From the NCBI RefSeq assembly GCF_015326965.1, contig NZ_CP017659.1:434001-498000 (forward strand): a stretch of DNA of 64,000 nt, in the 5' to 3' direction. Of this stretch, positions 44,052 to 64,000 are shown piece by piece (the first letter of the stretch is position 1; every line of letters begins with the position of its first letter). The position numbers and the translations under genes were made by a program. The DNA comes from Paenibacillus sp. JZ16. GTDB taxonomy: Bacteria > Bacillota > Bacilli > Paenibacillales > Paenibacillaceae. Below the pieces are notes generated by a model that was not told where the DNA came from, did not search any database, and saw only the letters and a list, made by a program, of their open reading frames with translations.

Positions 44052-44068
44052 GCATTCGAATTATAGAG

Positions 44069-48687: not shown

Positions 48688-48718
48688 ATGTAGAGTATTC
48701 GTGAATTTATTGAACTAT

Positions 48719-48915: not shown

Positions 48916-48944
48916 AATTTTGGATTTCTCAAATATTAAAACCA

Positions 48945-49363: not shown

Positions 49364-49726
49364 TTATGAAAAATTGGATAGTATCGTTTTATTCCTAGGT
49401 ACTGTACTCAATAAAAAGTCTTCTTTAGGTGCTTCTTTTAAGAGATTTTCTCCACGTATTCTTAGTTCCTCGTGTTGATTCCGTACGCGTTTAACATGCT
49501 CTTCATCACCTTTAACCTGGTTTTCTATATTTTGATATTCCTCAAGGCTCTTATATTCCCAAATCGCAAAGACTTCAATAGCACCTTCGATTTCTTCCGT
49601 CATCCACCGACCAACTAAACTTGCCCCATATTTGAGTTGTGTAGGTAAAAGAAATTCATTAAATAAATGATTAAATTCATCTATTCTTTTTGAATCTATT
49701 TTGTATGACTTCCTTCGATATATCAT
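49364..49726 (-). CDS. NIPSNAP family protein
   Basis: The roughly 120-residue protein begins MIYRRKSYKIDSKRIDEF and has GASLVGRWMTEEIEGAIEVF and AIWEYKSLEEYQNIE, fitting the ferredoxin-like NIPSNAP fold. NIPSNAP/EthD-like proteins are small dimeric proteins of varied and mostly unknown role. An AGGGGAAGA site lies some 11 bases upstream. It stands alone in the accessory region. The family call is fairly firm; the function is unknown. Confidence 0.82.
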   Translation of the reverse strand: MIYRRKSYKIDSKRIDEFNHLFNEFLLPTQLKYGASLVGRWMTEEIEGAIEVFAIWEYKSLEEYQNIENQVKGDEEHVKRVRNQHEELRIRGENLLKEAPKEDFLLSTVPRNKTILSNFS

Positions 49727-49834
49727 CAATTCTTTATCTTCCCCTCTGCTCGAAATGTCACTAAGTATTTATTCTTCAATGAACTTTATATCCCTGTTAA
49801 AACAATCCTGGAACTTCAACATTATTAAGCTAAA

Positions 49835-50030
49835 CTGCCCGTTAGCTTAGTGAAATTGCATGGAAACATAGTTAGATACTTGTCTAATCGGTAATCGGCT
49901 CATGTTCTTGTCCTTTACGGCAATCGGTACAAGTTCTTGTCCTTGGCTCGGGACAAGAACTTGTACCGATAAAACAAAAAAGCCGCTAAATTAGCGACTT
50001 TCTATGGGATCATGTTCTTGTCCCCCGACA
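49835..50030. repeat. Palindromic intergenic repeat, copy 2
   Basis: Nearly identical to copy 1 over its full length, including the 18-bp inverted repeat at 49925-49942 and 49951-49968 and the second hairpin at about 49979-50001. It ends in CCCGACA. It lies between two unrelated accessory genes. Confidence 0.85.
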
Positions 50031-50052
50031 TTTCCCTACATGTGGTACGGTT

Positions 50053-50082
50053 CTCCGCGCTGTCTGTAACGGCAAGTTTTAG
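50053..50082 (+). repeat. 30-base duplicated C-terminal coding remnant, left copy
   Basis: 29 of 30 bases match 51573-51602 in the same orientation. In both, one frame reads (L)xAVCNGKF and stop, so these look like the 3' ends of two related genes. This left copy has almost no coding sequence before it and is followed directly by a terminator. Confidence 0.6.
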
Positions 50083-50109
50083 GGCCATCCTCTGAGGGAT
50101 GGCCCTTTC
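50082..50109 (+). terminator. Orphan terminator after a gene remnant
   Basis: GGGCCATCC and GGATGGCCC form a perfect 9-bp stem and loop followed by TTT, directly after the remnant's stop codon. Confidence 0.7.
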
Positions 50110-50168
50110 CTTGATCTTACTTTATCCATCTATCGTTCTCTGTTAGTTAGGCACTCATAAATTAAGAC

Positions 50169-51182
50169 TTACGACTCGAAAAACTGTATTACGGAGGCTA
50201 TGCCATTCGTTACTTCGACTTCCGCTAGTGCACCATTGACGAACGTCATCTGTGGGGGCACATGACCGCAGTCGATATCGTAGACTATTGGAACGCCTAG
50301 CTCCTCCGCAAGCTCTCGGTACACATCCGATACTTCATAATCGTCGATGGGCTTGTTCGCATCGCTTCTGCCGAATAGGATGGCGCTACAATGGTCAAAC
50401 CAACCGGCCAGTCTCATTTGTACAAGTGAACGCCGAAGGTCGGTTACGTTCAATTCACAATTTTCAAGATACCAAAGAATCGGCTCGCCATGAATGAATT
50501 GACTCTGGAATGTCCGTACATTGCCATACGGCGTCCCAATCAAATGCCGGATGACATCAATACATCCCCCAAGTAGACGCCCGCGTACACGGGCATTATT
50601 GCCTGATGTTTGCCATGCGGTAGACTCGGTTAGATGAAAAACACATGGCGAAGGATTTTCGTGATCCCATGTCTTTTGAAACAGCTTTGACGAAAATTGC
50701 TGAACGGATTCACCGACCCGCGTCGCCAGCACGGTTTCCCACATTGCAGTTGTCTCGTCCGCATATTCCCCTCTCAAATCGATCAGATTCGTACCGTGAG
50801 CTGTGGCTATTCCTGTAGTGAGCGTAACAGCCAGTAATAGAACACTCGTATCTGAGTAGCCGAGAATCCACTTGGGCTGAATAAGATCGTATTCGATTCG
50901 ATCCACTATTTCGATCAACAGTTCTCCGCCCCATGGCGGGAAGATCATTCCAATCTTTTCGTTCTGCAGTAAAGCGTTAAGTTCTGCAGTCCTTATAGTG
51001 GCAGATGCCGACTTTGCTTTCTCTTGAGTCCATACTGTTTCCCCGCAAATCACCGGATAGCCCTTCTCTTTCAAACGGCCAATTGACTGGTTTACCAACT
51101 CGTGTAAAGGTCCTTTTACGCCGGATGATGGGGCGGTGACGCCTATCGTCGTCCCTTTCTGTAACAATGGATAGCGGATCAT
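50169..51182 (-). CDS. S66 family peptidase (LD-carboxypeptidase/MccF-like)
   Basis: The 337-residue protein has the S66 layout: GTTIGVTAPSSG at the start, the nucleophile Ser in GYSDTSVLL, a Glu in LENCELNV, and the His in DCGHVPPQMTF. Members either cut murein tripeptide-D-alanine (LdcA) or, like MccF, inactivate microcin C-type compounds. This one is closer in look to the MccF/general S66 group. The open frame extends 39 codons further, but the ATG at 51182 has GAGGGGGA upstream. It is flanked by the 30-base direct repeats at 50053 and 51573. The substrate is undecided. Confidence 0.88.
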   Translation of the reverse strand: MIRYPLLQKGTTIGVTAPSSGVKGPLHELVNQSIGRLKEKGYPVICGETVWTQEKAKSASATIRTAELNALLQNEKIGMIFPPWGGELLIEIVDRIEYDLIQPKWILGYSDTSVLLLAVTLTTGIATAHGTNLIDLRGEYADETTAMWETVLATRVGESVQQFSSKLFQKTWDHENPSPCVFHLTESTAWQTSGNNARVRGRLLGGCIDVIRHLIGTPYGNVRTFQSQFIHGEPILWYLENCELNVTDLRRSLVQMRLAGWFDHCSAILFGRSDANKPIDDYEVSDVYRELAEELGVPIVYDIDCGHVPPQMTFVNGALAEVEVTNGIASVIQFFES

Positions 51183-51381
51183 ATACTGATTCCCCCTCAA
51201 ACATGTTGCCATATCTACTAGTCTTTTGTTTTTGTGTCCACCCAGCAAAATTGCATACATATATACAAATCCACGCCATGTAAGAACCGATTCTAGCACA
51301 TTTTGGAATATATATCATATTCGTGACCTAGTACCAAGACCCCTTTTTCAAGGGGTCAATTTAATTCTAAGGTGATGTAAG

Positions 51382-51602
51382 AATGAGAATCATCAAGACA
51401 AGGCAGACTTTGACGTACTAAACCGCGTCGATACATTTCGGTGGCACTCCTCGAAAATGTCGAGGGCTACTTCACGCAACTAATGGTGGAACTGGAGGAT
51501 GAAACAGAGGGTGAATTTTGTTTCACAATGTTCACGTACTTTCAGGGTCATCTCTACCAGGGTTATCATTCGCTCCACGCTGTCTGTAACGGCAAGTTTT
51601 AG
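51382..51602 (+). pseudogene. Decayed gene of unknown family, 3' part
   Basis: One frame (51414-51602) ends in ALLENVEGYFTQLMVELEDE, then FTMFTYFQGHLYQGYHS and AVCNGKF. A plausible upstream part, HQDKADFDVLNRVDTF, lies in another frame, so at least one frame break is present. The last 30 bases are duplicated at 50053-50082. I do not recognise the family; the acidic/aromatic C-terminus could suit an immunity-type protein, but that is a guess. Confidence 0.5.
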
Positions 51603-51682
51603 CTTGTTGAAAGCCCTCGATTCTCAAGAGAAAAACAACCCCAAAATAGAACCATAATAATCCGAAAAATCAATATTTCCCC

Positions 51683-52162
51683 CTAGAAATACCCAATTGA
51701 AATAAAAATCGCACACCAGCACATGGCTCCCAAGCCCAAGTAGAGTATATATTTCAGTGGGTTCATGGCGCTCATCCCTGCCAGATAACAGGTCAGATGG
51801 CGGAGCCCTGGGATATAGTAACCGATGCATATCGCCCAGGGGCCGTAACGCTCGAACCAGCTCTCTGTTTTCTCTATCCTCCTGGTCGTGAACCTGACCC
51901 ATTTTCCATACTTCCACAGCAACGGCTTGCCGAACTTCCGCCCAAGGGCGTAACTGCAGAGCATACCACTCATAGCACCGAGGACGCTGATCACAAGAGA
52001 TACCGGGAAATCAAGCAGCCCCATAGACGAAAGATAGCCAACCATCGTCATAAGAACCTCATCAGGCACAGGCAAACCAAAAATGCCAAGCGCAAGGCAT
52101 AGGAAGATGGCAATATAACCGTAATGGATAACGATATCTTGTAAGAAAACGATGATGTTCAC
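51683..52162 (-). CDS. DedA family membrane protein, 3' end frameshifted
   Basis: The 159-residue frame has the DedA pattern: YGYIAIFLCLALGIFGLPVPDE, GMLCSYALGRKFG, then FERYGPWAICIGYYIPGLRH. It stops after FISIGYF, where relatives continue with L-G and another helix. The continuation, FLGGNIDFSDYYG, is present in another frame that runs to 51624. One missing T in GGGTATTTCTAGG would join them into about 179 residues. DedA proteins are phospholipid scramblases or flippases and support membrane energetics. The family core is intact, so it may still work. Confidence 0.82.
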   Translation of the reverse strand: MNIIVFLQDIVIHYGYIAIFLCLALGIFGLPVPDEVLMTMVGYLSSMGLLDFPVSLVISVLGAMSGMLCSYALGRKFGKPLLWKYGKWVRFTTRRIEKTESWFERYGPWAICIGYYIPGLRHLTCYLAGMSAMNPLKYILYLGLGAMCWCAIFISIGYF

Positions 52163-52382
52163 ACTCCAGTTCTAATGGCTTTGGGCAAGGATTCATCGCC
52201 CTTACAGGTATCTTAATGCCTCCCTTGTCAATAAACCTAGTGCCGAATTGTCACATGACTCTTTCAAAGTGGCTGGATGTCATGGATGACAAAATGCAAC
52301 TTGTTGGTGTGACAACTCCTTTGCCATACTTGGCTCAGCCGTTCGTTAAGAGGCAAATCTAATAGGCAAGGAGACATCATTT

Positions 52383-52586
52383 ATGAAGAAATGGATTCGC
52401 ACGAATCTCGCAGTTCTGCTATTAACTGTTCTGCTATTAACTGTTCTGCTATTGTCTGTTACGGTCATTACCGCTTATATCGGACTAGGGAAAACACCTA
52501 GTACCCGTAGGCACCCTCGCCAGTTGCATCTGAGGAGGCCAGCCTGGAGGGGTAGCGGTATCCTATCATCTCTGCTATTTAACTAA
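52383..52586 (+). CDS. Small hydrophobic frame with 15-bp tandem repeats
   Basis: The 67-codon frame has AAGGAGACATCATTT before the ATG and begins MKKWIRTNLA, then a membrane-like helix built from LLLTV repeats (three 15-base units at 52413-52457). The C-terminal part (RRHPRQLHLRRPAW) is basic and lacks any recognisable pattern. It may be the stub of a secreted or membrane protein whose downstream part was lost or frameshifted. Confidence 0.4.
   Translation: MKKWIRTNLAVLLLTVLLLTVLLLSVTVITAYIGLGKTPSTRRHPRQLHLRRPAWRGSGILSSLLFN
52413..52457 (+). repeat. Three tandem 15-base units
   Basis: GTTCTGCTATTAACT occurs twice exactly, then once with two changes. Being a multiple of three, unit gain or loss would lengthen or shorten the encoded helix without breaking the frame. 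Confidence 0.8.
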
Positions 52587-52900
52587 TCACTGGAAAACGA
52601 ATCATAACGGTCGTACTACGCCCTCCCGCGCTGCTAATGTGGACAGAACCTTGAATGTTGATCGACGATCCAACGCGCGATCGATAGTCCTAGACCCGCT
52701 CCATGATCCCCTCTATTTATAGAGGAATCTCCTTTGTAAAAGCGATTAAATATGAGTGGCATTTCGTGTTCCGAAATACCCACTCCGTTATCCTTGACGG
52801 TTACTAGAACTGATTTCCCCTGCCTAAGATCGCAGCAGCCAGATTTGACATGCAACTTGGAGCGATTATAAGTAGGAGAATATAGAGAAGATGTAGCCAA
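52579..52900 (-). pseudogene. Histidine kinase C-terminal remnant
   Basis: The frame contains ATP-binding boxes of a sensor kinase: VKDNGVGISEHEMPLIFNRF (G1/F boxes) and GAGLGLSIARWIVDQH (G2). The final strand, GSVHISSAGG then TTVMIRFP, is in another frame after CAACATTCAAGG, so a base change has broken the end. The dimerisation domain, phospho-accepting His, N-box and membrane part are missing. It is a remnant with no partner response regulator. Confidence 0.75.
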
Positions 52901-52939
52901 TAATTAGGAATAAACGGCAGAGTGATGAAAAAGCTTGCA

Positions 52940-52990
52940 AAAAAAGAGTACCCTTAATCGGTTTTTACCGAATAGAAGGTACTCTTTTTT
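52940..52990. terminator. Terminator of the sigma/anti-sigma operon
   Basis: Arms AAAAAAGAGTACC and GGTACTCTTTTTT are perfect 13-base complements around a 25-base loop. It lies 45 bases past the anti-sigma stop. Confidence 0.85.
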
Positions 52991-53034
52991 CTGCTCAATG
53001 TCAAAATACAATAAAAACATACGGAATCCTAAGG

Positions 53035-54666
53035 TTAAGGCATCTCCAAGCTCCAGTAGCTCTCCGGATCCACGTTTTCAAGACCCGGAATTGGCTTGCC
53101 GATCGGCAGTTCAAAGGACCAGTTCACATTCGGATACCACTTGTCGGTGACTTTGCGGATCAAGGTGGCCTTCTCCGGCAGTTCGGTCATGCCCTGCACA
53201 ACAAAGCCGGGATCTCCGGAAGCCTCTTTGATCTTGCCCATACTGACTCCCCCTCTGAATTCCGCCGGATATTCCCTTCCATCCTGATCTCTGACGACCC
53301 AAACATCTTTGCTGAATTCATTGCGATATTGCCCTTTCATGTTAATTAGACCCGCAATTTTCGGATCATTCATCCTCGCATTCGGGTCATGCTCAACCGT
53401 AAAGCCGCTTAATGTAACGACGTCTCCCTGATCCTTGAATATAACCGGATGTTCTTTAAGCTCGCTTGGAATCAGTTCAAGCGAACCGCTGCTTTGAATG
53501 GGAATGGAGTATCCGTCAAATACGAAGCTCAGCTTTTCGCGGTCATACGGAAGATACCTGAAGGTATAGGTCCAGTGCCGCTTACCGCCCTGCAGCTCAC
53601 TGTTCTGCGAAATGATCGTCTCTGGGTGTCCGCCCCTGTAATTGTTTACGCTCGATATGTCTTCTCCCTTTTCATTTTCAAAATGAAACATCAGCTGCTG
53701 CATGCTCTCCAGTACTCCCGGCGAGCGCTTGGCGGCTTCAGGTGTCAAGGAAGTGCTCAGCTCCAATCTTACGCCGCTTGGCGTGCGTACCAGCTTTTCC
53801 ATCTCAATCTGCATACCGTCAGGCGTCATGTACTTCTCATGTAGGGGCGTCGTAATATTCAGCGCGTTCGCCTTTTTCATGTCGAGCTTGAAGTTGAAAT
53901 CCCAGTTTCCTTTCACGACTTTCTTGGAAAATACATTTCCTATTTCGCTTACCTCTCCTACTACGCTCACTTGATCATTCTGAACTTCACGAGTAAAAAC
54001 AAACGTCAATTTATCGATGAACTTCGATCCTCCTTGTTCCCTGAGCCGCGCCACCTCATTATCGTTAGCATCTAGGACAAGAATTTTACTCCAGTCAACC
54101 TGATTCACGGCAGGTTTCCCCCGCGGATCCGTCACCTTCACCCCCATCACAAGCCGGGTCGCATCGGCGACCACTTCGTTAATCTCAATCGTGTAGCCTT
54201 TATCCTTCACTTTGACATGGGGGTTCTGCACGAGTCCAAGGCTTTGGGCATCCATCATTCCGCTATCCGAGGTTTCCCTCGCAAAAATCGATCGGACCCA
54301 GTCGGCAATGGACGGCTGTGCATACAAAGTCAATGCCATGGCTACAACGAGAAGCGAAGCAACCCACAAGGCGCTTTTTTTCAAGAAAGGCCGCGATTTC
54401 GGATGACTCTTCTTAGAAACAGCCATGGATTCTTCCCCTGCAGGCTCGATTTCCATCTGTTCAAGGGAAGCCATCACCTGCTCGGTAAAGCCTTCTGGAA
54501 GTCTCTCGGCATACAGCAGCTGCGTCCATACTTTTTCTTCCTCCTCTGCCGCGGCTACCGTACTCCGGCATTCCGGGCACATGCGAAGATGGAATTCCAG
54601 CTCTTCGTCCGTTTTATTTCCAGACCGAATGTACTCTTTTGTCTGAGCAAGCTTCCAGCATCTCAT
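53035..54666 (-). CDS. Membrane anti-sigma factor with zinc-finger-like N-terminus and DUF4179/DUF5643 domains
   Basis: The 543-residue protein has an amino-terminal anti-sigma zinc-binding-like motif (HLRMCPECRSTV, about 26-37), then a membrane helix at about 98-115 (ALWVASLLVVAMALTLY). A long extracellular part follows, matching DUF4179 then DUF5643 (from about 120 on). It should hold the adjacent ECF sigma factor at the membrane until an envelope signal arrives. GGAGGGG lies before the ATG, and its start overlaps the sigma gene by 53 bases, so the two are translationally coupled. Confidence 0.88.
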   Translation of the reverse strand: MRCWKLAQTKEYIRSGNKTDEELEFHLRMCPECRSTVAAAEEEEKVWTQLLYAERLPEGFTEQVMASLEQMEIEPAGEESMAVSKKSHPKSRPFLKKSALWVASLLVVAMALTLYAQPSIADWVRSIFARETSDSGMMDAQSLGLVQNPHVKVKDKGYTIEINEVVADATRLVMGVKVTDPRGKPAVNQVDWSKILVLDANDNEVARLREQGGSKFIDKLTFVFTREVQNDQVSVVGEVSEIGNVFSKKVVKGNWDFNFKLDMKKANALNITTPLHEKYMTPDGMQIEMEKLVRTPSGVRLELSTSLTPEAAKRSPGVLESMQQLMFHFENEKGEDISSVNNYRGGHPETIISQNSELQGGKRHWTYTFRYLPYDREKLSFVFDGYSIPIQSSGSLELIPSELKEHPVIFKDQGDVVTLSGFTVEHDPNARMNDPKIAGLINMKGQYRNEFSKDVWVVRDQDGREYPAEFRGGVSMGKIKEASGDPGFVVQGMTELPEKATLIRKVTDKWYPNVNWSFELPIGKPIPGLENVDPESYWSLEMP

Positions 54667-55222
54667 GTATCATCCCCTCCTTCTCCTTGAACTTTTTTCG
54701 CAGAGACTTCTTGGCCCGGTGCAGCCGATTGCGCACTTGATTCACCTCAATGCCGGCAATAGCGGCAATTTCGTCATAGCTTAGTTCATTCGTATATCGC
54801 AGCAGCAGCACGATCCGATATTTATCCGGCAGCTGCTGCAGTAATTGCTGTACTTCCCCGCCGGTTTCCTTGCGGAGATAAGCCGATTCCGGCGTTTCGG
54901 TGTGATGATGCTGCACCCGGATCAGCACATCAGCTTCTACCGGCTCAGGCTTTTTTCTCCGCCCCGCATCCTTCATCACATTCACGGCGATGGCGTACAG
55001 CCATGAGGCGAAGTTCGATTCCTCCCTGAAGCCCGCCAGCTTGCGGTAAGCTCTCAGAAAAGCCTCCTGCGTGTAGTCCTGGGCATCCTGCGGGTTAGCA
55101 CCCAGGCCTCGTAATAGGCCGTATATTTTATTTTTGTGCGTATCCACCAGCTGTGTAAAGCTCCTCTTGTCGCCAGCCAGTACTTGACTGACCAGCGTAA
55201 CGTCCTGTGACGGGTCTGCCAT
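54614..55222 (-). CDS. ECF-type RNA polymerase sigma factor
   Basis: The roughly 202-residue protein has sigma region 2 (DAQDYTQEAFLRAYRKL, FASWLYAIAVNVMKD) and region 4 (LPDKYRIVLLLRY, SYDEIAAIAGIEVNQVRNRL). It directs polymerase to a small regulon in response to envelope stress, and is controlled by the anti-sigma protein encoded right after it. The ATG at 55222 (MADPSQ) has AGGGAGG upstream; the ATG at 55228 is too close to that site. No SigX/W-type promoter motif for autoregulation was clear in the upstream region. Confidence 0.92.
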   Translation of the reverse strand: MADPSQDVTLVSQVLAGDKRSFTQLVDTHKNKIYGLLRGLGANPQDAQDYTQEAFLRAYRKLAGFREESNFASWLYAIAVNVMKDAGRRKKPEPVEADVLIRVQHHHTETPESAYLRKETGGEVQQLLQQLPDKYRIVLLLRYTNELSYDEIAAIAGIEVNQVRNRLHRAKKSLRKKFKEKEGMIHEMLEACSDKRVHSVWK

Positions 55223-55228
55223 AACCAT

Positions 55229-55755
55229 CCTCCCTGCTCATCATCTGAACTTCATATATTATAGACGGATGTCCTTTGCCGTTTCTCTCACTTAAAAAAA
55301 GAGCCCTCTTAGAGTCCCTTCCTGGTTATTCCATTATACTGCCCGTTAGTTGAACAAAAGCAGCCGATCACAATGATCAGCTGCCATCTTATTTTGACGT
55401 TAGCTTAAAGAATTAGAGCAGTGTAAATATAAAAACTTATCTAATCGGTAATCGGAATATGTTCTTGTCCTTTACGGCAATCGGTACAAGTTCTTGTCTT
55501 TGGCTCGGGACAAGAACTTGTACCGTTAAAACAAAAATAGCCGCGATTAGCGACTTTCAAAGGAACATGTTCTGGTCTCCCGACATCTGCACAGATTAGT
55601 AACGATAAAATAAAAAAGCCGCTATATTAGCGACTTTTAATGGGACTATGTTCTTGTCCCTCGACAATTCCAATAAATAATTTGTGTCAAATATTGTTCG
55701 TATGACCGGAACTGTTTCATTCATAGAAATAAAATAATGAATGACGTGTTCCTTT
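55229..55755. other. Intergenic region occupied by repeat copy 3
   Basis: About 530 bases without a supportable gene; a 74-codon frame at 55596-55820 on the minus strand overlaps the nuclease gene and is not credible. Most of the stretch is the palindromic repeat described at 55339-55666. Confidence 0.5.
55339..55666. repeat. Palindromic intergenic repeat, copy 3 (extended)
   Basis: It opens with CTGCCCGTTAG, contains the GCAGCCGATCA/TGATCAGCTGC hairpin (55360-55384), then the shared core with the inverted repeat at about 55482-55497 and 55509-55525. The terminal part (GCCGC..TTAGCGACTTT, ATGTTCTxGTC, CGACA) is duplicated in tandem. It is longer than copies 1 and 2 because of the extra hairpin and the duplicated tail. 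Confidence 0.8.
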
Positions 55756-56772
55756 TTACAAGGCCCAGATCCCAGTACCTGGTTTACGCATCGCCTTAAC
55801 CCAACTTCGAAGAGTCTCACGATTGGCTTCTGCGACTGGATATTCTCGTGTCAAACATAATGTTTTCGATCCAGGCGAAAAGCTACTCGATGTAACGATC
55901 AAGCCTTTTTGGGCTTGTTCATGTAGCACATCAGCATATAGGGCTTTTACAATAGTTTGTTCGATCACACTCTTTTGTCTTTTACACTGAATAAGAATTG
56001 TTGGTGGGCCAGCAAGCTTAGGGTCTTCTGTCCAAACTCTAACATCAATACCACCATCTGCCCGTCCAGGACCAATTTCAACAAAGTATCCTTGTCTTTC
56101 AAAAAATTCAGCTGTTAGACCTTCAAATTTTCGCCAGTGAATACTTCCTATCTTATCATCGAAATTTGCTCTTAGATAATCAATATACCGCTGATCCATA
56201 AAAGTCCCGTGTTGTGTTTTTAAATTTTCGCTAACAAACAAATCATTCAGTTTAGCTACATCCTTCCATTCGGTTTCCCGAATGCTAGTCCAAGGACTTT
56301 TATGAAGGAGACCATTTAATCCATCTACGAGCTCCATTATGAGATCAGAACCTTCTTTACCATACTTCAATGTCGCTTCAATTAAAGGTGGTACCATTGC
56401 CTTATTTGGATCTTCACCTTGTTGAGCTGCAGTATTGAAATTCTCCATCATTTTAAGAAAAAACGGAAATACGTCATCCAGTAGTTTTGTTTTTTTTGCG
56501 TTGTGCCTATACTTATGACGTAAATGCAATGTAAACAATCCAGGACTTGTCGACTCGATATTACCAAGGCGCTGTAATAGTTCCTCAATCAGTCCTTCAA
56601 ATTCTTCGGGATACAATCGCAGATAACCTTCTGCTGGTCCAAACCAAATTTGATGATATTCTGTCGGAATAATATCATCAAACTCTTCCTTGTTCAAGCC
56701 TAAGCCAGACTTATAGCCTATAAGCTCTCCTGTTCTTGTTATTACTTCTTTACGACTCACACTAATAGCCAT
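55756..56772 (-). CDS. Mrr-like restriction endonuclease family protein
   Basis: The 338-residue protein has a C-terminal PD-(D/E)xK nuclease core of the Mrr_cat type: FEGLTAEFFERQGYFVEIG, the Asp of ADGGIDVRVW and the QCK of ILIQCKRQ, then GLIVTSSSFS. The amino-terminal 200 residues are not a recognised Mrr DNA-binding domain and may give a different specificity. The ATG at 56772 is preceded by AAGGAGA; the frame to 56802 would start at TTG without a site. Such proteins cut modified or foreign DNA. A 41-codon frame lies just upstream on the same strand. It is the first gene of the defence-like block. Confidence 0.85.
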   Translation of the reverse strand: MAISVSRKEVITRTGELIGYKSGLGLNKEEFDDIIPTEYHQIWFGPAEGYLRLYPEEFEGLIEELLQRLGNIESTSPGLFTLHLRHKYRHNAKKTKLLDDVFPFFLKMMENFNTAAQQGEDPNKAMVPPLIEATLKYGKEGSDLIMELVDGLNGLLHKSPWTSIRETEWKDVAKLNDLFVSENLKTQHGTFMDQRYIDYLRANFDDKIGSIHWRKFEGLTAEFFERQGYFVEIGPGRADGGIDVRVWTEDPKLAGPPTILIQCKRQKSVIEQTIVKALYADVLHEQAQKGLIVTSSSFSPGSKTLCLTREYPVAEANRETLRSWVKAMRKPGTGIWAL

Positions 56773-56804
56773 TACAATTACCCATCTCCTTGAGCTGCCC
56801 AAAA

Positions 56805-56930
56805 TTAATTGTTGATATTATTTTTAAGCTCTCTAAGATACTGTTCAGCAGCCAGTAGACTTAATCCCTCATGTCTATTTACTAGATCCAACCATCCCTG
56901 TTGAAGTGATTTATACTTTGTGAGTTTCAT
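56805..56930 (-). CDS. Small 41-residue protein upstream of the nuclease
   Basis: An ATG frame reading MKLTKYKSLQQGWLDLVNRH and ending ELKNNINN, 32 bases before the nuclease start. It is predicted all-helical with an amphipathic C-terminal half. There is no strong ribosome site. It could be a leader, an antitoxin-like partner or chance. Confidence 0.35.
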   Translation of the reverse strand: MKLTKYKSLQQGWLDLVNRHEGLSLLAAEQYLRELKNNINN

Positions 56931-56948
56931 AGTTTAATAATCTCAAGG

Positions 56949-57128
56949 GGTTGCGTATAACGTTCTTGTATTTACGAATCTGAGAGGCTTAAGGGAGAAC
57001 TGCGACTGGATCCGACAGACTTAGCCTCGCAGGGTTATCTGCCAGATTCACTTCTCTGGTACACCTCGGGCAGATCAAGGGAGGGTGTCCCCCGCAACGT
57101 AGATACTTTGTTATAAGAAGTTCGGGCC
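56949..57128. repeat. Structured repeat with inverted ends, copy A
   Basis: The left end holds TATAACGTTCTTGTATTTACGA, and the right end CGTAGATACTTTGTTATAAGAAG then GGGCC. The ends are imperfect inverted repeats of each other. The interior holds several GC-rich pairing segments (CTGCGA...TCGCAG, CTCGGGCAGA, GGGAGGGTGTCCCCC). Copy B at 59739-59948 shares the ends and the internal ATTxCACTTC word. It directly follows the 3' end of the 57142-58239 gene. Confidence 0.65.
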
Positions 57129-57141
57129 ATCACTGATCTAC

Positions 57142-58239
57142 TTAATTAATATCATGAAACCATCTAAAAAAACTATCAAAATTACGATTAATTATAGTAT
57201 TTACTTCGCTAACTGATAGATTAGAAAAAGGATTACCATTACCTTTCTGTTCTAATTCTGAAAATACTAGATTTTCAAAATTATAAATTCTAATAGCTTC
57301 ATAATAATCTCTAATATCAATTTTATATACTTTTTGCTTGTCAAACTTATAGTGTACTATATGGGAAATTACACATTTAAAAAGCATATTCGATATTTCT
57401 TCATGATCAACGAAGTTTCCTGAGATTTGTAATATATATTTAAAGGTTACTTTATACCTAACATATGGTACTAGTCTATGTTCTGCACTTAATAGAATAG
57501 TATCGAATGCTTGAGCTAAATAACTATATACTACGAACCAAAAAACTTCAGCATCCGTAGCATCGGATGGTAATGGTAAGACTGTTGACTCCTTATAATC
57601 TGTAAATCTGGTTTCGAGATCCAGTCCACTATCTTCATCTTCTAAAAAAAATATGCTCTTATCAACCCCCGGTAATAATCCATTCTTTATATCACTTATA
57701 GTTTCAAATTTATTCTTGTACAACTCAATATCAATTGAGTCTTTAAACATGCTGAAAAATGCTTGATCAGCAGCTTTATAAATCATCGAATTATCTTCGG
57801 TTAATAATCTAATTGGTAAAATATATATTATTCCCTCAGCTTGATCAATGATCTTTATATTATCCATAATTGTAGATTCTATTTGTTCCTTCATCTTATA
57901 ATTAAAATCTCTATTAACATCAGTTTTTCTAAGCATCGTTATATACTTGTATATAGGATCATCCCAGAAATGATACTTCCCCAACGATACGAATGGGAAA
58001 TGCTGGTAATCACCAAGATCCAAAATTGTTGCTGCTGTAAATACATAAGCGCTATAAGGTTGATATAAATAACGTAATATACACTGTACAATTTTTTTAT
58101 TACGTTCCCAGAAGACCCCTATTTCATCTACAACAGCGTCAGCATCATTATCACTAATATTTTTTAGAGCATTAATTAAAATAGTTCTATATTCAACTTG
58201 AATATTATTTAATTCATCTATAAGAAGGTTATTATTCAT
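57142..58239 (-). CDS. Unknown protein, second gene of a coupled pair
   Basis: The 365-residue protein is predicted mostly alpha-helical, acidic and soluble, rich in Ile, Asp, Tyr and Phe. Scattered phrases such as ELEQKGNGNPFSNLSVSEV near the end do not match a family known to me. Its ATG overlaps the stop of the preceding gene by 8 bases, with AGGAGTAAAAGAAT as ribosome site, so the two proteins are made together and probably act together. No catalytic motif was found. AT-rich base use sets it apart from the core genes. The position in a nuclease-containing island favours defence, but this is inference. Confidence 0.65.
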   Translation of the reverse strand: MNNNLLIDELNNIQVEYRTILINALKNISDNDADAVVDEIGVFWERNKKIVQCILRYLYQPYSAYVFTAATILDLGDYQHFPFVSLGKYHFWDDPIYKYITMLRKTDVNRDFNYKMKEQIESTIMDNIKIIDQAEGIIYILPIRLLTEDNSMIYKAADQAFFSMFKDSIDIELYKNKFETISDIKNGLLPGVDKSIFFLEDEDSGLDLETRFTDYKESTVLPLPSDATDAEVFWFVVYSYLAQAFDTILLSAEHRLVPYVRYKVTFKYILQISGNFVDHEEISNMLFKCVISHIVHYKFDKQKVYKIDIRDYYEAIRIYNFENLVFSELEQKGNGNPFSNLSVSEVNTIINRNFDSFFRWFHDIN

Positions 58240-59683
58240 ATTCTTTTACTCCTGCCGACAAGTGCAATGGAACTCCATATAACCCCTCTAAAACATTAAG
58301 TGTTTTATTCATAACTCTTACACAATCGTGCCATACGTTTCTCAGTTTCTGGTTATTTTCTATATCCGGAACACAATGATACTGGTGTGAAGGTGTATTA
58401 CACTTAATTAATGAACTTTCACGAATCGCTCCCCATAGTCCATGTTCAAACGCAGAATCATAATCATAATAAAAGTCAAAAAGCTCCTTTTCATCTACAG
58501 CGATTGCCTTTCCTCTGATATTTTGTTTATCAAAGTAGGTAGTATCCATGTCAATAAATTCTTTGTTTTTATATTCATTAACTAAAATGTCTAAATATTC
58601 ATAAGAAACATGGCTATTTGGCAACTCCTTTTCCGATTGTCTAAAACGTTCAACAATGAGTTTATACTGACCAATTCCGTAATACTGATACTCTGTCCAT
58701 ATATCAGTATGTAACGATTCGTTTTTAAGTAAATATTTCATCATGATGTAATCCTCTATTACTGTACGAACAATACCCCTACCTGAAATTGTATAGAAGA
58801 GTTCATGTTCAACCAACTCTATTAATCGTTTGTACGAATACGTGGTTATTCCTAAGAGAACCAGCATTTTATTATCAAGTGGGTTTGCTGATGTAAACAA
58901 ATCTGTATAATATTCAAGTATTACTTTAACTCTGCTCATGTATTCTTTTGTATCAGGTAGATCACTGGACATATCTATGTAAAACAACTTACAATCATTC
59001 ATTCTACTAACTGCCTCCCAAAAGAAATCTAAATATTCTCCATCAAAAGGATCAATTTCGTTCTGCATCATTTCTATTGACCTTACCGTTGGACGTATCA
59101 TTCTCATTCTCTCATCTTCATGTGGTAATGTAGGATACTCAAGAAGCATTGCCATTGATTCACGTTGCATATGTAACTTCCCTGACAGTACAACGAAATA
59201 CACTATAATAAATCTAATGTCAGTAGAGAGATATGATTGATGATCGCTGGTTTGCTCCATTACAGAATTTATAGTTTCTATCCTTTGATCAACTGACATA
59301 TTTGATTGGAACTTTGACGAAAAAATTGGAAAGTTAGAGTAGGTAAAAATAGTAGTTAGAGGTGCTAATACTTGAGTATCAATAACAGTTAATAAGTATT
59401 TAAAAAATCCGTCTTGCTTTTCCGCCTCGAAATTAAGAATCTTTGAAAACTTTGGAGTAACTAATGCTGGAAATTGTTCCTTAATTTTATTAAGAATGAT
59501 ATTGCATTTTACTAGTCCTTTTTCTCTTCCATAAAAATTAATAATAAGAGCTATCCATAAATATTCTGGCAATCTTCCATGATACCATGAATTTTCTTTG
59601 CCGATTTCATTCATTAACTCATTCCAAGGCGTGATAAATTTTCCTTTTTTGAAAATATGATCAGAAAGTTTGCTATGATCCAT
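58232..59683 (-). CDS. Unknown protein resembling DUF5677, first gene of a coupled pair
   Basis: The 483-residue protein is helical. Its C-terminal half has a pattern reminiscent of DUF5677/HEPN-like proteins: GIVRTVIEDYIMMKYLLKNE, YYGIGQYKLIVERF, then DSAFEHGLWGAI with Glu-His, and a trailing SHQYHCVP. If so, it may be a nucleotidyltransferase- or RNA-cleaving-type partner, but the match is from memory and weak. A TAGGGGGAACTC site precedes the ATG. It is translated with the next gene (8-base overlap). No membrane segment or signal peptide is present. Confidence 0.6.
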   Translation of the reverse strand: MDHSKLSDHIFKKGKFITPWNELMNEIGKENSWYHGRLPEYLWIALIINFYGREKGLVKCNIILNKIKEQFPALVTPKFSKILNFEAEKQDGFFKYLLTVIDTQVLAPLTTIFTYSNFPIFSSKFQSNMSVDQRIETINSVMEQTSDHQSYLSTDIRFIIVYFVVLSGKLHMQRESMAMLLEYPTLPHEDERMRMIRPTVRSIEMMQNEIDPFDGEYLDFFWEAVSRMNDCKLFYIDMSSDLPDTKEYMSRVKVILEYYTDLFTSANPLDNKMLVLLGITTYSYKRLIELVEHELFYTISGRGIVRTVIEDYIMMKYLLKNESLHTDIWTEYQYYGIGQYKLIVERFRQSEKELPNSHVSYEYLDILVNEYKNKEFIDMDTTYFDKQNIRGKAIAVDEKELFDFYYDYDSAFEHGLWGAIRESSLIKCNTPSHQYHCVPDIENNQKLRNVWHDCVRVMNKTLNVLEGLYGVPLHLSAGVKEYE

Positions 59684-59738
59684 GAGTTCCCCCTATTTAC
59701 AAACTAAGTATAAACCAAGTATTTGTGTTACAGTCATT

Positions 59739-59948
59739 GCCCGAATTTCTTATAACGTTCTTGTATTCACGACATCCCTCCGCCTTAAACCCGTAGGGCG
59801 GCCGCGATGCGGTTAGGTGGAGGGATGTGTCCGGCTGATTCCACTTCCTCGCAACTGAAAATCCATCTCCGAATCCTCTTCTAACTTCTGCCGGACCGAG
59901 GGCCGAATGGCCCGAAGTTTGAATATGTTGTTATCGGAAGTTAATGCC
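59739..59948. repeat. Structured repeat with inverted ends, copy B
   Basis: The left end GCCCGAATTTCTTATAACG continues as TTCTTGTATTCACGAC; the right end is GAATATGTTGTTATCGGAAG then TTAATGCC. The interior holds CATCCCTCCGCC...GGTGGAGGGATG and GGGCCGAATGGCCC hairpins. The stop codon of the frameshifted gene to the right (59931-59933) lies inside the right end. The ends match copy A over about 20 bases. Confidence 0.7.
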
Positions 59949-60285
59949 TTCCTGTGACTCCATCAAAATGTATTTAAAGTGGTTCATACTATTCTTAATA
60001 ATTTTGTTTTCCATTGTTTCAACTTCTTTAATTAATTCTTTCATAATATTCTTTGCCCGATAATAATCCGATTCTTCTATAAGGTTCTTAATTAAAGCTT
60101 CGGGTAAACCTTTTTGTATTGACCGAATCTGTTGTAGACACCTGCTTTAACCCGCTCAACGTTCCACCAAAGATTCTATGATCGTTGAAGAAGTGCTGAT
60201 CCGAATATTTACGCAGTTTTCGATCATAACGGTACTTCTCAATTATCGCTCTGACTTCAGAAGTTATTTTCCCCAATAGACTCAT
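59931..60285 (-). pseudogene. Small unknown helical protein, frameshifted
   Basis: The open frame from 60285 encodes 65 residues (MSLLGKITSEVRAIIEKYRY then GGTLSGLKQVSTT). It goes out of phase around 60130-60145. The following bases in another frame encode a good continuation: QIRSIQKGLPEALIKNLIEE, AKNIMKELIKEVETMENKII, then SMNHFKYILME, ending at TAA in the repeat's edge. Joined, the protein would be about 115 residues, basic and helical. The ATG abuts its GGGAGG site, so a TTG nine bases on may be the true start. The function is unknown. Confidence 0.6.
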
Positions 60286-60358
60286 CCTCCCTCATTACAT
60301 TAAATCCATATTCCACAACATATCATTAAGTAAAAATATGGACAAGCAAATGGTCTGC

Positions 60359-61477
60359 TTAGCTCTTCTTAGCAAGACTCGCCAAGAGCAGGAGTTGCAG
60401 GTCGAGCTTGTCCGTTCCCAAACTCACAAAGGGCGGCAATACCCCCTCACTGGAGAGCCGCTTAAGGTGATAGTCGACCATCGATAACGGATACGATGAA
60501 TTGTGCAGGTACTCGAATACCTTGTGCAGATCGTAGGATACCTCTTTGAACCTGCGAGGTCTCGAATGCAGAAGATGCATATGAGCTAAATCCTCTTCAC
60601 CAACCGACATGGTCTGAAACGCTTCGTGTATCTCATCGATTAACAGGTGCAAGGATTTTAGGTACTTAGCTACTTCCTGCCGTTCGTGCTCGGGGAAGTC
60701 CTGCGGAGCCGTGAAAAGTCCGATTAGCGTATGGATCTCATAATGATACCCCTCACCGTCTCCGATCCGACTGCTATTCTCCTGCAACAGATTTTCGAGA
60801 TGCTCGACAACATTGGAGCTGCACCCGATCTCCTGCCGCCGCTGCTCCTCGATAAAGATACCATGCTTTTTTCCAATTACGCTGATCACGTTCGATAAGA
60901 GGGAGTATCGTTTAATCGTATACTCATGAATTTTGGCGAAACTCATTGAGAACCGAATAGGTTGAACCAAATCGGGATTGTTGCTGTAGAGATAAACCGA
61001 ATAATCTCCGTTACCCCCGATATTACAGATATCACTAGACCAGGAAGCGAAGAACTTGTCCGTACTCTTCGTTCCATCAGCACTCCTTAAATCGACTGGA
61101 TGCGCTCCGAAGCATGCCCGGATCTGCGCGAAATACGCATCGTCTGTAACAGCCGCATTAAATACCGAATCGTCTTTCTTTAGCGGGTATTCCATCTCGA
61201 AAACACGATGGAGCTGCTCGATGGATTGAAGAACAATATCGTATGTCGTGATCAGCTGCAGAACATTCAATGAGCGAACATCGTCATGAGAGTGGGTCAA
61301 ATCGATATACGGCAAACCGTTCACGCTGACGGAGAGCCAATCCTTCGCTGAGCAAATCAGGCTCCATAGGTTCTTGCCGTTGTAGTTGCTGTATGTGTTA
61401 ATCAGGAAATCGTCATGATCGCTAACGGCTTGCTTGAACTTCTCAAGCAAGCCGTTAGCGAGAATATATGGGTTCAT
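60359..61477 (-). CDS. Unknown protein of the right-hand operon
   Basis: The 372-residue protein is mostly helical. It contains YFAQIRACFGAHPVDL near residue 115, which resembles an arginine/histidine motif (RxxFxAHP), and a conserved-looking FFASWSSDI. A C-terminal stretch, YDLHKVFEYLHNSSYP, looks like a helical repeat. GGAAGAGG lies upstream of the ATG. It follows the HTH gene by 21 bases in the same operon. I do not recognise the family. The base composition is closer to the core than that of its neighbours, which suggests a different origin. Confidence 0.6.
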   Translation of the reverse strand: MNPYILANGLLEKFKQAVSDHDDFLINTYSNYNGKNLWSLICSAKDWLSVSVNGLPYIDLTHSHDDVRSLNVLQLITTYDIVLQSIEQLHRVFEMEYPLKKDDSVFNAAVTDDAYFAQIRACFGAHPVDLRSADGTKSTDKFFASWSSDICNIGGNGDYSVYLYSNNPDLVQPIRFSMSFAKIHEYTIKRYSLLSNVISVIGKKHGIFIEEQRRQEIGCSSNVVEHLENLLQENSSRIGDGEGYHYEIHTLIGLFTAPQDFPEHERQEVAKYLKSLHLLIDEIHEAFQTMSVGEEDLAHMHLLHSRPRRFKEVSYDLHKVFEYLHNSSYPLSMVDYHLKRLSSEGVLPPFVSLGTDKLDLQLLLLASLAKKS

Positions 61478-61498
61478 AACATTGAACCTCTTCCTTAC

Positions 61499-61987
61499 TT
61501 ATTCTGGTGACCTCTTTGCCTTTACAATATGCAAAAGGTGATCAATAACTTGATTGTTGAGAAACATTTGCGAAGATACCGAACCTGATGCTGATTTAAT
61601 TGAAATAGATACCCAGTCATCACGAACTTCAATGTGATAATTATCGTTGGGTAAAGTTAGCGGTATCTCGTGTTTCATTTCAACTAGCTCAGGGTACCTT
61701 CGGTAATGTTCACTAAGTGCATCTCTAAGGTCATATTCGATACATTCATCATCAAGAATTAGAGCAACTCTACCTGGAATAAAATCGCCACGCATCCATG
61801 AATCAAGAATCGCCTTATGAAAGGAGATATCCCTGTAACTCTTAGTGTAAGGAATTTTGTTTTCCTTTACCATTTTGCGAACTAAATATTTAGAGAGCCC
61901 TAAATACTCGGCAGCTTCCTTCACATCCATATGTTTGTCATACCACTTCTTCGCTTCCTCTTCACCTCTAATAACATAACCAATCAT
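61499..61987 (-). CDS. Excisionase-like helix-turn-helix protein (second copy)
   Basis: The 162-residue protein has an HTH_17-type MerR-like motif at about 20-70 (MDVKEAAEYLGLSKYLVRKM, KENKIPYTKS, then FHKAILDSWM). A C-terminal domain of about 90 residues follows with no recognised fold (IEVRDDWVSISIKSASG). The start codon overlaps the stop of the upstream gene as ATGA. Excisionase-type proteins bind DNA and direct recombinases, but the extra C-terminal domain suggests a sensor or regulator role. It is paired with a related protein directly before it. Confidence 0.75.
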   Translation of the reverse strand: MIGYVIRGEEEAKKWYDKHMDVKEAAEYLGLSKYLVRKMVKENKIPYTKSYRDISFHKAILDSWMRGDFIPGRVALILDDECIEYDLRDALSEHYRRYPELVEMKHEIPLTLPNDNYHIEVRDDWVSISIKSASGSVSSQMFLNNQVIDHLLHIVKAKRSPE

Positions 61988-62484
61988 TTGAGTTCTCGCC
62001 GTTGAGCTCTAGCAAATTCACGATCAATTTCATCAAGAGCAAGAATTAAAGCGTGGTATCTACGCTGGGCATACAACCTACGCTTTTCTAAATCCTCAGG
62101 TCTATCTTTATAATAAACGCTTTTTGTTGCACTTTCCTCGAATACTTCGTCTAAATGCTTTTTTATATCAGCTTCTTGAATTTCTAAGACTGTTTGGATA
62201 AAGCAAATTGTTTCACTCGATAAATGCATTTCATATCGCATTCCAGATAGCTGATCATCTGAATCACCTCGGTCAGAAGGTAGGGGAGTTAACAGTGGTC
62301 CTCTTGGCGAGACAGTCGCTGCTCCCATCCACTCACGTAGTACGTCCTCATGGAAAACAACTCTACTACCTACTTTGATGCTGGGAATTTGCTTTGTTCT
62401 GACCATTTCGTATATTTTTGCACTTGATATACCCAACATCTCGGAGACTTCTTTTACGGTTAGTGTTACTTTTCTAACGGACAT
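61984..62484 (-). CDS. Excisionase-like helix-turn-helix protein (first copy)
   Basis: The 166-residue protein begins with the same DNA-binding fold (LTVKEVSEMLGISSAKIYEM, KQIPSIKVGSRVVFHEDVL). Its C-terminal half (about 90-166) is helical and charged (EADIKKHLDEVFEE, ALDEIDREFARAQRRELK) and unrelated to that of the next gene. AACGGAGG lies before the ATG at 62484. It overlaps the preceding gene by 11 bases. Two tandem Xis-like proteins in one operon are unusual; they may form a hetero-dimer at the operon's own promoter. Confidence 0.78.
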   Translation of the reverse strand: MSVRKVTLTVKEVSEMLGISSAKIYEMVRTKQIPSIKVGSRVVFHEDVLREWMGAATVSPRGPLLTPLPSDRGDSDDQLSGMRYEMHLSSETICFIQTVLEIQEADIKKHLDEVFEESATKSVYYKDRPEDLEKRRLYAQRRYHALILALDEIDREFARAQRRELK

Positions 62485-63373
62485 TTGCATTACCTCCGTT
62501 AGGTTTTAATTTTTCCAAATATGTAACCACAAGTTGTGAAATACTCAGCAATAACTCTGCTTCATTCTGGTCAACAGCTACTGGAGGTAGATTCCCGTTC
62601 TCCCTATGTGCTGAGTTACGGTGGTGTCCAATCTTATTGAGATAGGTTGATACACCAGTCAACAATCCAATAATCCCACTTTTCTTTTGGTCTGAAACAT
62701 CTTCTAGAAACATTTCCCATGACTTAGCCATGTAAGGTCCACCTCGTCCATTTCCGATGTCGGTGTATGATTCAATAACTGATAGACATTGGCGAAGGGC
62801 GTCATAAGTGAATCCCCTTTGCATATGTTCTCTGGCTAATTCGAGATGCTCATACGCTTGAGTCCAACTCGTATCATTTAGCAATGATGTGGGAAGTGTC
62901 ATTCCGTATTTCGTGGAATACCCAAAGTTTCGGATGAACCGAATCCAGTCTGATTCAGATATCTTTATCTGCTGGCTGCCGGTTATCGGAATGATCTTAT
63001 TTCCGTTCTCCCGTACTTCGACAAGTGCTTTAACTTCAATACTAAAGTGCAAGTCGCCAGATCGAACCCCTTCGAGAGCAGAGATATCATTGGGATCGAA
63101 AATCCATTCCCATTCTCTGTAACCGGAGCTTTGATTGAATACCTTAATATTGGGTTGAATTTCACCGACAGCTTTCTTCAAGAAAGTGGAGTTAGACTTA
63201 GCAGATACCTGAATGTCCAAAATGTTTTGAAGCCTGTGTGTTTGATCCGACATCACAATATCGAAAAACTGAATGTTATCAGAAACTCTCAAGTCGAACT
63301 CAAACTTTAGGAATGTATTGTTGTTCAAGTGATTAGAGTACATAGATGATTCAAACAGATTTATCGTATACAT
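62474..63373 (-). CDS. HEPN-like protein of the right-hand operon
   Basis: The 299-residue protein has a beta-rich amino half (about 1-170) and a helical C-terminal half. The latter has DALRQCLSVIESYTDIG and IGHHRNSAHRENG, then NEAELLLSISQLVVTYLEKL. The HRNSAH followed by helices resembles the arginine-histidine motif of HEPN-type RNases and abortive-infection proteins, although the spacing is one residue short of the R(x4-6)H consensus. GAAGGAGATACTC lies before the ATG at 63373; the frame to 63442 is less likely. A role in phage-induced growth arrest is a hypothesis. Confidence 0.6.
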   Translation of the reverse strand: MYTINLFESSMYSNHLNNNTFLKFEFDLRVSDNIQFFDIVMSDQTHRLQNILDIQVSAKSNSTFLKKAVGEIQPNIKVFNQSSGYREWEWIFDPNDISALEGVRSGDLHFSIEVKALVEVRENGNKIIPITGSQQIKISESDWIRFIRNFGYSTKYGMTLPTSLLNDTSWTQAYEHLELAREHMQRGFTYDALRQCLSVIESYTDIGNGRGGPYMAKSWEMFLEDVSDQKKSGIIGLLTGVSTYLNKIGHHRNSAHRENGNLPPVAVDQNEAELLLSISQLVVTYLEKLKPNGGNANVR

Positions 63374-63393
63374 GAGTATCTCCTTCAATTGAA

Positions 63394-63690
63394 TTAAAAG
63401 CTTTTGAGAGTATAAAAACCTTCTCCCGAACATGAACCACAATCCAAATGATTATGGAACCCCAATATCACCGTAGGAATCGGTCTGGATAATGTGCCTG
63501 ATATACAAAATCTGTGCTGACCTTGACCAGTACTGTAGTGACCGCATTTATACTTGTATAAATTAATCGGAAACATACGCTCTGGTTCTTCCTGCATTAG
63601 CTGATTAACATACAGACAATGCTTAGCATTAGACTTATCATTACGGTTGTGCTGTTCTAAATCATCTAAGCCTGAAGAAATAATGAGCAC
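63394..63690 (-). CDS. Small cysteine-rich unknown protein
   Basis: The 98-codon frame contains YKYKCGHYSTGQGQHRFC and LDCGSCSGEGF, two pairs that could hold zinc (CxH...C and CxxC). The start is uncertain: GTG at 63690 overlaps the upstream gene by 25 bases; the ATG at about 63597 is an alternative. It lies 20 bases before the HEPN-like gene in the same direction. No family recognised. Confidence 0.45.
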   Translation of the reverse strand: MLIISSGLDDLEQHNRNDKSNAKHCLYVNQLMQEEPERMFPINLYKYKCGHYSTGQGQHRFCISGTLSRPIPTVILGFHNHLDCGSCSGEGFYTLKSF

Positions 63691-63887
63691 CCCTGAGATG
63701 GATCTTTATATACATGACAGTTACCGATATGAAAGTAAAAACTGACGGATTTGCCCTTTAGATCGAAATCTTTTATACCGACCATTACATTGTTGAGGTC
63801 GAAGTAATAATCAAACTCATCTCTATTCAGCTTCATCAATCTATTAATCCGTCTTCGTCTAAGGAAGATTAGTTTTCCAAGCCCCAT
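63666..63887 (-). CDS. Small unknown protein
   Basis: The 73-residue protein has a very basic start (FLRRRRINRLMKLNRDEF) and a C-terminal beta-like part (VSFYFHIGNCHVYKDP). GAGGGAG lies 8 bases before the ATG. It begins 16 bases after the stop of the partial gene at the window edge, so it is part of the same unit. No domain was recognised. Confidence 0.5.
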   Translation of the reverse strand: MGLGKLIFLRRRRINRLMKLNRDEFDYYFDLNNVMVGIKDFDLKGKSVSFYFHIGNCHVYKDPSQGCSLFLQA

Positions 63888-63903
63888 ACTGTAACTCCCT
63901 CAG

Positions 63904-64000
63904 CTACTTCATAGCCGCTGCTTTTTTAAGCTGCATCGAATCACTCTCTTGCATTGACATATCTAAATTGTGTCTGTTTAATACCGCCGACTTAGCAGGA
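63904..64000 (-). CDS. Partial gene at the right edge, C-terminus only
   Basis: One frame is open from the window edge to TAG at 63904-63906. It encodes 31 residues, including SAVLNRHNLDMSMQESDS and KKAAAMK. The stop is followed closely by the ribosome site of the next gene. Too little is present to name it. Confidence 0.4.
   Translation of the reverse strand, partial: PAKSAVLNRHNLDMSMQESDSMQLKKAAAMK

Follow-up and report, generated by a model that had tools for sequence, protein, structure and literature searches.

The window analysed here is a stretch of 64,000 nucleotides (nt) of the Paenibacillus sp. JZ16 genome (contig NZ_CP017659.1, positions 434,001 to 498,000 of the forward strand), which comprises 7.42 Mb in a single contig. 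Between window positions 56949 and 59948, two structured repeats, termed site A and site B, bracket the overlapping genes of two proteins, DitA and DitB. We consider here whether these repeats are attC-type recombination sites and whether the gene pair is a cassette of an integron-like system, headed elsewhere in the genome by a tyrosine recombinase. The features of the locus are as follows.

56961–59755, minus strand: complete gene cassette of 2795 base pairs (bp), from TTATAAG.. after the site B core to the G of the site A core
57142–58239, minus strand: DitB, 365 amino acids (aa), second gene of the pair (PADLOC PDLC03827, E-value 1.5e-94)
58232–59683, minus strand: DitA, 483 aa, with DUF5677 (PADLOC PDLC03826, E-value 3.4e-202; PF18928, E-value 2.9e-19)
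56949–57135, minus strand: attC-like site A, which closes the DitAB cassette at its 3′ end (core GTTA at 56961–56958, R″ TAAC at 57113–57110; stems L′ = CGTAAATAC and L″ = GTATCTACG)
57110–57135, minus strand: arm of site A, matching the start of the DitAB cassette
59731–59948, minus strand: attC-like site B, end of the preceding truncated cassette (core GTTA at 59756–59753, R″ TAAC at 59933–59930)
59731–59756, minus strand: arm of site B, which is the start of the DitAB cassette
59931–60149, minus strand: remnant open frame of the preceding cassette, with its stop codon within R″ of site B

The two sites and the DitAB cassette

The initial annotation described two structured repeats with inverted ends and internal hairpins, each lying directly 3′ of a minus-strand gene, and this description holds. 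A 27-nt direct repeat of 89% identity links positions 56951–56977 and 59746–59772, a 26-nt inverted repeat (88%) pairs the outer arm of site A (57110–57135) with that of site B (59731–59756), and both copies fold with internal hairpins. The end of DitB at 57142 adjoins site A, whose core span is 57113–56958, and the stop codon reported to lie inside a repeat end is the TAA at 59931–59933 of the truncated gene. Read on the minus strand, both sites present their elements in an attC-like order: R″ (TAAC), a 3-nt spacer, a 9-nt L″, a variable middle, a 9-nt L′, a 6-nt spacer and R′ (GTTA). The L″ and L′ of site B match poorly (6/9). The strict attC consensus RYYYAAC/GTTRRRY is satisfied in the TAAC/GTTA part only, in agreement with the earlier caution that the fit is partial. 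The two ends of the DitAB cassette match each other at 23 of 26 nt.

The gene pair, previously called unknown, can now be matched to DitA and DitB. The PADLOC matches cover nearly the full length of both proteins, which are encoded by adjacent, overlapping genes; DitB has no NCBIfam or Pfam family at an E-value of 0.01. DitA and DitB together form what we take to be the anti-phage system named Aditi. Judged by these matches, the pair is a predicted two-gene phage-defence system of the Aditi type, like the PADLOC models in both of its proteins and different in being borne here on an integron-like cassette. A literature search on Aditi returned nothing on the system among the matches listed.

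Two attC-like sites with no integrase nearby correspond to what IntegronFinder terms a CALIN, a cluster of attC sites without an integrase, and the window holds a two-site remnant of this kind, in which a truncated cassette ending in site B is followed by the DitAB cassette ending in site A. For the cassette that ends in site B, a start was sought as far as 9 kb upstream without success. Comparison with two relatives, G048 and G045, likewise revealed no empty site of the DitAB cassette; their left-flank similarity to the window stops at 55307 and 55293, respectively. Just downstream of the DitAB cassette, at 55756–56802, lies a gene for an Mrr-type restriction endonuclease in the same direction, possibly a further defence gene, or a cassette whose site has been lost.

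One-strand arrays and matching cassette ends

Many further copies of the repeat are present in the genome, mostly in a one-strand array. A 17-mer shared by the two sites (up to 2 mismatches) occurs 16 times genome-wide, 9 of them clustered together; the reversed control pattern occurs once. A weight matrix places 32 sites on one strand of the main array (G000:C1, 7330351–7363211), none on the other strand and none in a shuffled copy, and the largest open reading frames (ORFs) between the sites run mostly in one direction. The array consensus, drawn by eye, is RaCwTCnnnTAAC-AnA-ATATTCACG ... CGTGAATAC-rrGAAC-GTTAnnnGAAAT; site B is 77–82% identical over about 190–200 nt to three array sites at 7336844–7341337. 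Minor groups of attC-like sites lie outside the main array at 773.8–774.7 kb and 7417–7420 kb (L029 and L028).

Comparable arrays of 25, 42, 35, 30, 28 and 10 sites are found in six other genomes, with a single site in the opposite orientation, in G010. Among 100 genomes of the genus, 70 contain the core-site pattern (2 control hits) and 47 contain at least three copies, to a maximum of 49. A set of 301 cassettes from 30 arrays (two of the sources, G004 and L130, being one genome) has a median cassette length of 783 bp; the longest ORF is co-directional with the array in 257 of the 301, ending a median of about 32 nt from the site. Tandem cassettes in a single orientation are the arrangement seen in integrons, and the copies do not ignore gene ends, which would have spoken against the cassette layout proposed by the initial annotation. 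The 37 ORFs scanned from array cassettes (L025–L027) include GNAT, NUDIX, HAD, SIR2 and TIR proteins, with matches to 19 PADLOC families at 1e-8, and the arrays may serve as stores of defence genes.

The cassette ends themselves are informative. If the moving unit is a cassette cut at G|TTA, the R″ arm is expected to match the start of its own cassette, located just beyond the previous site. Across 191 cassettes in eight arrays, the arm matches its own cassette start at a mean of 9.46 of 13 positions beyond GTTA; the sequence that comes after the same site on the chromosome scores 5.54, and other sites score 5.25. None of 5000 permutations is as high in seven of the eight arrays, and 805 of 5000 are in the eighth, which has three cassettes; with an earlier placement of the sites, none of 20000 permutations reached the value for this genome's array. 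The match spans 18 positions; agreement falls close to background at the tenth, and a mismatch at the eleventh is conserved. Canonical attC sites were sought by structure only in 12 viral-contig and 4 plasmid loci, which led to one short array (L200). Among the canonical cassettes read by eye, from L200 and two plasmids, the own-end match reaches 13 nt for a cassette of a class 3 integron and about 8 nt for L200. The match is probably an integron trait, since these canonical cassettes have it too; a greater length here (18 nt) is weakly suggested, as the canonical cassettes are few and were read by eye.

The inner stems also pair. Watson–Crick pairing of L″ with L′ is 0.844 in 192 sites from Paenibacillales and 0.703 after shuffling (0 of 2000 shuffles as high), with compensatory C-G/T-A exchanges at several positions, and in 36 sites from outside the order it is 0.932 against 0.566. 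Both tests lean towards structure because the scan that places the sites rewards such pairing, whereas the own-end test is not affected in this way, since no two sites are compared with each other by the scan. With that qualification, R″/R′ and L″/L′ form imperfect inverted repeats, as in attC, that are predicted to fold as a single strand, and in a sample of 40 of the 192 sites the mean z-score of the fold, relative to mononucleotide shuffles, is −2.77 on the top strand and −3.3 on the bottom strand.

An attI core beside the recombinase gene, a further hallmark of integrons, can be predicted from the 3′ end of the first cassette. It is predicted at 40 of 44 loci that have a first site, with a best upstream match of at least 14/18; when the ends are swapped between loci, the mean is 1.04 of 44 and the maximum 5. 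The predicted core lies 90–320 nt after the C-terminal SPLD codons of the recombinase in 36 of the 44, and in some of the other eight the SPLD codons were probably misassigned. Palindromes like TTCACGAAGTTCGTAAA recur upstream of the core, a CGAAGTWC-like string being present in 27 of 44 loci; these palindromes resemble the integrase-binding repeats of attI1. The attI assignment is made by sequence only.

These results bear on the proposal that the repeats are structured RNAs or transcription terminators, which recombine only passively by homologous exchange with one another. Stable folds at gene 3′ ends would suit such elements, and exchange between repeats could shuffle genes as well. An Rfam scan of window positions 44000–64000, however, gave four sub-gathering matches, none of them at the repeats, and passive exchange leaves unexplained the match of R″ to its own cassette start over about 18 nt from the core, the predicted attI core beside the recombinase, and the co-occurrence of the repeats with one recombinase family. 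We regard this alternative, of which the initial annotation had raised the structured-RNA form, as very unlikely. It is instead highly probable, on the sequence evidence, that the repeats are attC-type sites of an integron-like cassette system common in Paenibacillus and its relatives, and that the window cassette comes from such an array.

A recombinase family without the IntI-specific insertion

The initial annotation suggested looking for a tyrosine recombinase, and one is found at the head of the array at 7.33 Mb, away from the window sites (L025:16625–17613, just upstream of the array and co-directional with the cassettes). Strong matches to its family occur in this genome at that position only; other tyrosine recombinases match weakly. 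Among the 100 genomes of the genus, 27 have a match at an E-value of 1e-45, and these follow the core-site pattern: 0 of 30 genomes without it, 1 of 23 with one or two copies and 26 of 47 with at least three (Fisher p 3.5e-10). Some relatives have an open frame of about 380 aa; open frames of at least 341 aa with no inner stop make up 9 of 28 matches, many of the matches being short or broken. In an alignment of 60 relatives, R231, K256, K259, H321, R324 and H347 are invariant and Y356 is conserved in at least 90%, with catalytic roles that are assigned from the wider family; as in integrons, the enzyme is a tyrosine recombinase with conserved catalytic residues.

A rival explanation is that Paenibacillus received by transfer an ordinary integron, canonical IntI included. 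The integron integrase 2A3V is the closest solved relative, aligning in two stretches that skip its residues 172–238, and it ranks first with Foldseek, followed by XerA. By VIA-align, two Xer structures rank above 2A3V, XerA among them; this list is silent on the N-terminal domain because the alignment covers residues 98–365. All 60 relatives have the PLD of the C-terminal motif, and IntI1 and IntI3 carry SPLD too. Matching own ends, as described above, are likewise seen in the few canonical cassettes read. On the other side, the spacer between GKGxKDR and HxLRH, where the insertion specific to IntI is located, is 59–62 aa in all 30 members in which it can be measured (3 others, being broken, were left out) and 100 aa in 9 of 9 IntI proteins, with the gap also seen in comparison with IntI1. 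The additional domain typical of IntI is absent from the family, and calling the recombinase an ordinary IntI is rejected on this ground. Furthermore, the family carries an added N-terminal domain, its gene runs in the direction of the cassettes, and in a tree of 40 rows its 29 members lie behind a branch supported at 90/71, below the 95/80 mark, while IntI lies behind another at 100/100; the tree includes 9 closely grouped IntI proteins and two Xer proteins on long branches. The intact recombinase of locus L039, from Paenibacillus sp. NFR01, scores 218.8 bits against NF040815 (cut-off 220) and 205 against the integron integrase model TIGR02249 (cut-off 265), falling below both cut-offs, and some family proteins are named 'site-specific tyrosine recombinase/integron integrase' at NCBI. 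The chance that this is a transferred canonical integron is smaller still than that of passively exchanging RNA elements. On the alignments, this family of recombinases stands apart as a variant that lacks the insertion specific to IntI. We would file the system as integron-like, and not as a canonical IntI integron, because the sequence-level features tested are present with the exception of the IntI-specific domain.

The additional N-terminal domain comprises about 85 residues. It resembles HARP (PF07443) in 16 of 60 members at E-values up to 0.5 (best 1.5e-5), L039 itself giving no match, and this likeness is weakly indicated and serves as a lead only. A model of the domain gave no Foldseek match at an E-value of 0.001; among the matches listed, archaeal RNA polymerase subunits came first (probability 0.25–0.57), and XPB appeared at 0.13–0.75. 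HARP and XPB domains are readers of DNA structure, and by analogy the N-terminal domain may read the folded attC.

In the mechanism that we infer, which extends to the choice of strand and the direction of movement, the tyrosine recombinase would recognise a single strand of the site in the form of a long hairpin, with R and L stems separated by unequal spacers of 3 and 6 nt, and would cut at G|TTA. The excised cassette would be a circle, exchanged into attI beside the recombinase gene or into another attC. The DitAB cassette would derive from such an array.

Movement, reach and relation to known integrons

Cassettes vary and recur between genomes, and the absence of such variation, which the initial annotation had held would count against a cassette system, is not observed. 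Shared cassettes stand at different array positions; the 22nd interval of this genome's array (G000), for example, is 96% identical over 784 nt to the 16th of G014. Of 394 genomes of the family, 6 encode relatives of DitA, this one included. In one genome of another genus (G636), DitAB forms a 2791-bp cassette inside an attC array. Its identity to the window is 0.93 and 0.91 in the genes, 0.84 at the cassette start, and 0.25 and 0.23 in the outer flanks. A 68% relative in G788 is followed by two sites and is perhaps cassette-borne too, while a 77% relative in G530 has no site within the 20 kb examined. On this comparative basis the cassettes behave as mobile units, as integron cassettes do. 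Judged by orientation, position and recurrence, it is the least probable of the alternatives that the repeats are elements like miniature inverted-repeat transposable elements, or other non-autonomous transposable repeats lying between genes by chance: inverted ends, internal hairpins and many copies per genome would fit, but the repeats keep one orientation within an array and lie at gene 3′ ends, complementarity ties both ends of a gene unit, the whole gene-plus-repeat unit recurs in another genus, and at the head of the arrays stand a tyrosine recombinase and its attI-like site. The gene-plus-3′-repeat layout likened to integron cassettes in the initial annotation is supported by the one-strand array with its recombinase, by cassettes recurring as units and by their matching own ends.

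Relatives of the recombinase, some of them accompanied by attC-like sites, occur beyond Paenibacillus. In a phylum sample of 398 genomes, the Paenibacillus-type pattern is present in 12, which are this genome, three further members of its family (13–33 copies) and eight others. Of 569 loci from a protein-level scan for the recombinase, the best 80 were considered, and these extend to Clostridia and to metagenome-assembled genomes labelled Chloroflexota, Nitrospinota, Bacteroidota, Altarchaeota and others, whose contigs may be mis-binned. These 80 loci hold 183 sites in 50 loci (1 site, in 1 of 80, after shuffling), and at least one site is present in 29 of 32 loci from Paenibacillaceae. A Chryseobacterium plasmid (L169, NZ_CP041688.1) carries at 11974–15408 a recombinase of the family followed by genes mostly on one strand; an attC-like site is visible by eye and none is placed by the weight-matrix scan. 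The plasmid is possibly a mobile version of the system.

Several observations weigh against the attC reading or limit its reach. The recombinase of this genome is broken, with its pieces in different frames, and the array may be frozen for that reason unless it is helped in trans. Within the genus, 14 of 35 genomes with at least ten copies have no recombinase match at 1e-45, and 23 of the 70 pattern-positive genomes hold only one or two copies. In the cassette set, the longest ORF is on the opposite strand in 23 of 301, and 21 of 301 contain no ORF of 70 aa. For DitAB, site A is only 0.67 identical to its counterpart in G636 and the preceding attC 0.74 and 0.47, and BLAST similarity between the window and G636 (56943–59848) continues 92 nt past the core into the preceding attC, whose type is similar. 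The eight genomes from outside the family have one or two pattern hits each, little above the 3 control hits. Outside Paenibacillaceae, only 21 of the 48 loci with the recombinase carry a site (none of the 48 after shuffling), and some of those without one have 4–6 kb of flank; the own-end match exceeds the same-site match in 16 of 21 consecutive pairs, with one tie and four lower.

Two other features are recorded here. A perfect 19-bp inverted repeat with a 5-nt loop lies at 61419–61461, within the start of a gene of 372 aa, and has a sub-gathering Rfam match. The other is a dispersed repeat, roughly 190 bp long and distinct from sites A and B, that bears GGGACAAGAAC motifs and a AAAAAAGCCGC..GCGACTTT hairpin; it occurs at 55398–55586, 48725–48915 and 49878–50031, and at L057:4233–4384 and 9807–10001; many copies are found across the genus, clustered in some genomes, and Rfam gives no match at the window copies.

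Chromosomal (sedentary) integrons, with IntI, attI and attC cassettes, are known for example in Vibrio and Xanthomonas. The Paenibacillus-type system resembles them in that a tyrosine recombinase heads a one-strand array of mostly single-gene cassettes of diverse content, with an attI-like core adjoining the recombinase and imperfect palindromic sites with a GTT core at the cassette ends. It differs in a recombinase without the IntI-specific insertion, with an extra N-terminal domain and co-directional with the cassettes, and in sites with R–L spacers of 3 and 6 nt, an own-end match of about 18 nt and a conserved mismatch at the eleventh position. A domain unique to and necessary for integron integrases was reportedly described, to go by the title, by Messier and Roy in 2001. 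The study of archaeal integrons by Ghaly et al. (2022, PMC9668308) calls the IntI-specific domain a defining characteristic of integron integrases; the archaeal systems described there are alike in having arrays of attC cassettes and an attI immediately downstream of the integrase gene, and differ in that their IntI proteins carry the additional domain that the Paenibacillus-type family lacks. The same study mentions integrons of Spirochaetota with IntI in reverse orientation, which are similar, compared on orientation alone, in the unusual orientation of the integrase gene.

In Firmicutes, integrons are described as extremely rare, with one complete example (PMC9024848), a 2021 review counts Firmicutes among the integron phyla (PMC8618304), and IntegronFinder 2.0 reports 'a few CALIN' in Firmicutes genera. 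A literature search, with most subscription journals and bioRxiv outside its coverage, returned no report of this integron family in Paenibacillus. A broader interpretation, which we consider fairly probable, is that the system represents a second deep-branching integron lineage, whose integrase would lack the IntI-specific domain and carry an N-terminal HARP/XPB-like domain that reads structure. Its large chromosomal arrays would be found throughout Paenibacillaceae, and also in Clostridia, Dehalococcoidia, Nitrospinae, Bacteroidota and some archaea; it would spread phage-defence cassettes between genera, and would have been overlooked because surveys require the IntI-specific domain.

A core-site pattern in 70 of 100 genomes of one genus contrasts with the extreme rarity described for integrons in Firmicutes. 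An integrase without the IntI-specific domain would show that attC recombination runs in another way as well, and would test the purpose of that domain. The arrays constitute a large pool of unexplored cassettes, defence genes included, and the DitAB cassette illustrates how an anti-phage system can move between genera.

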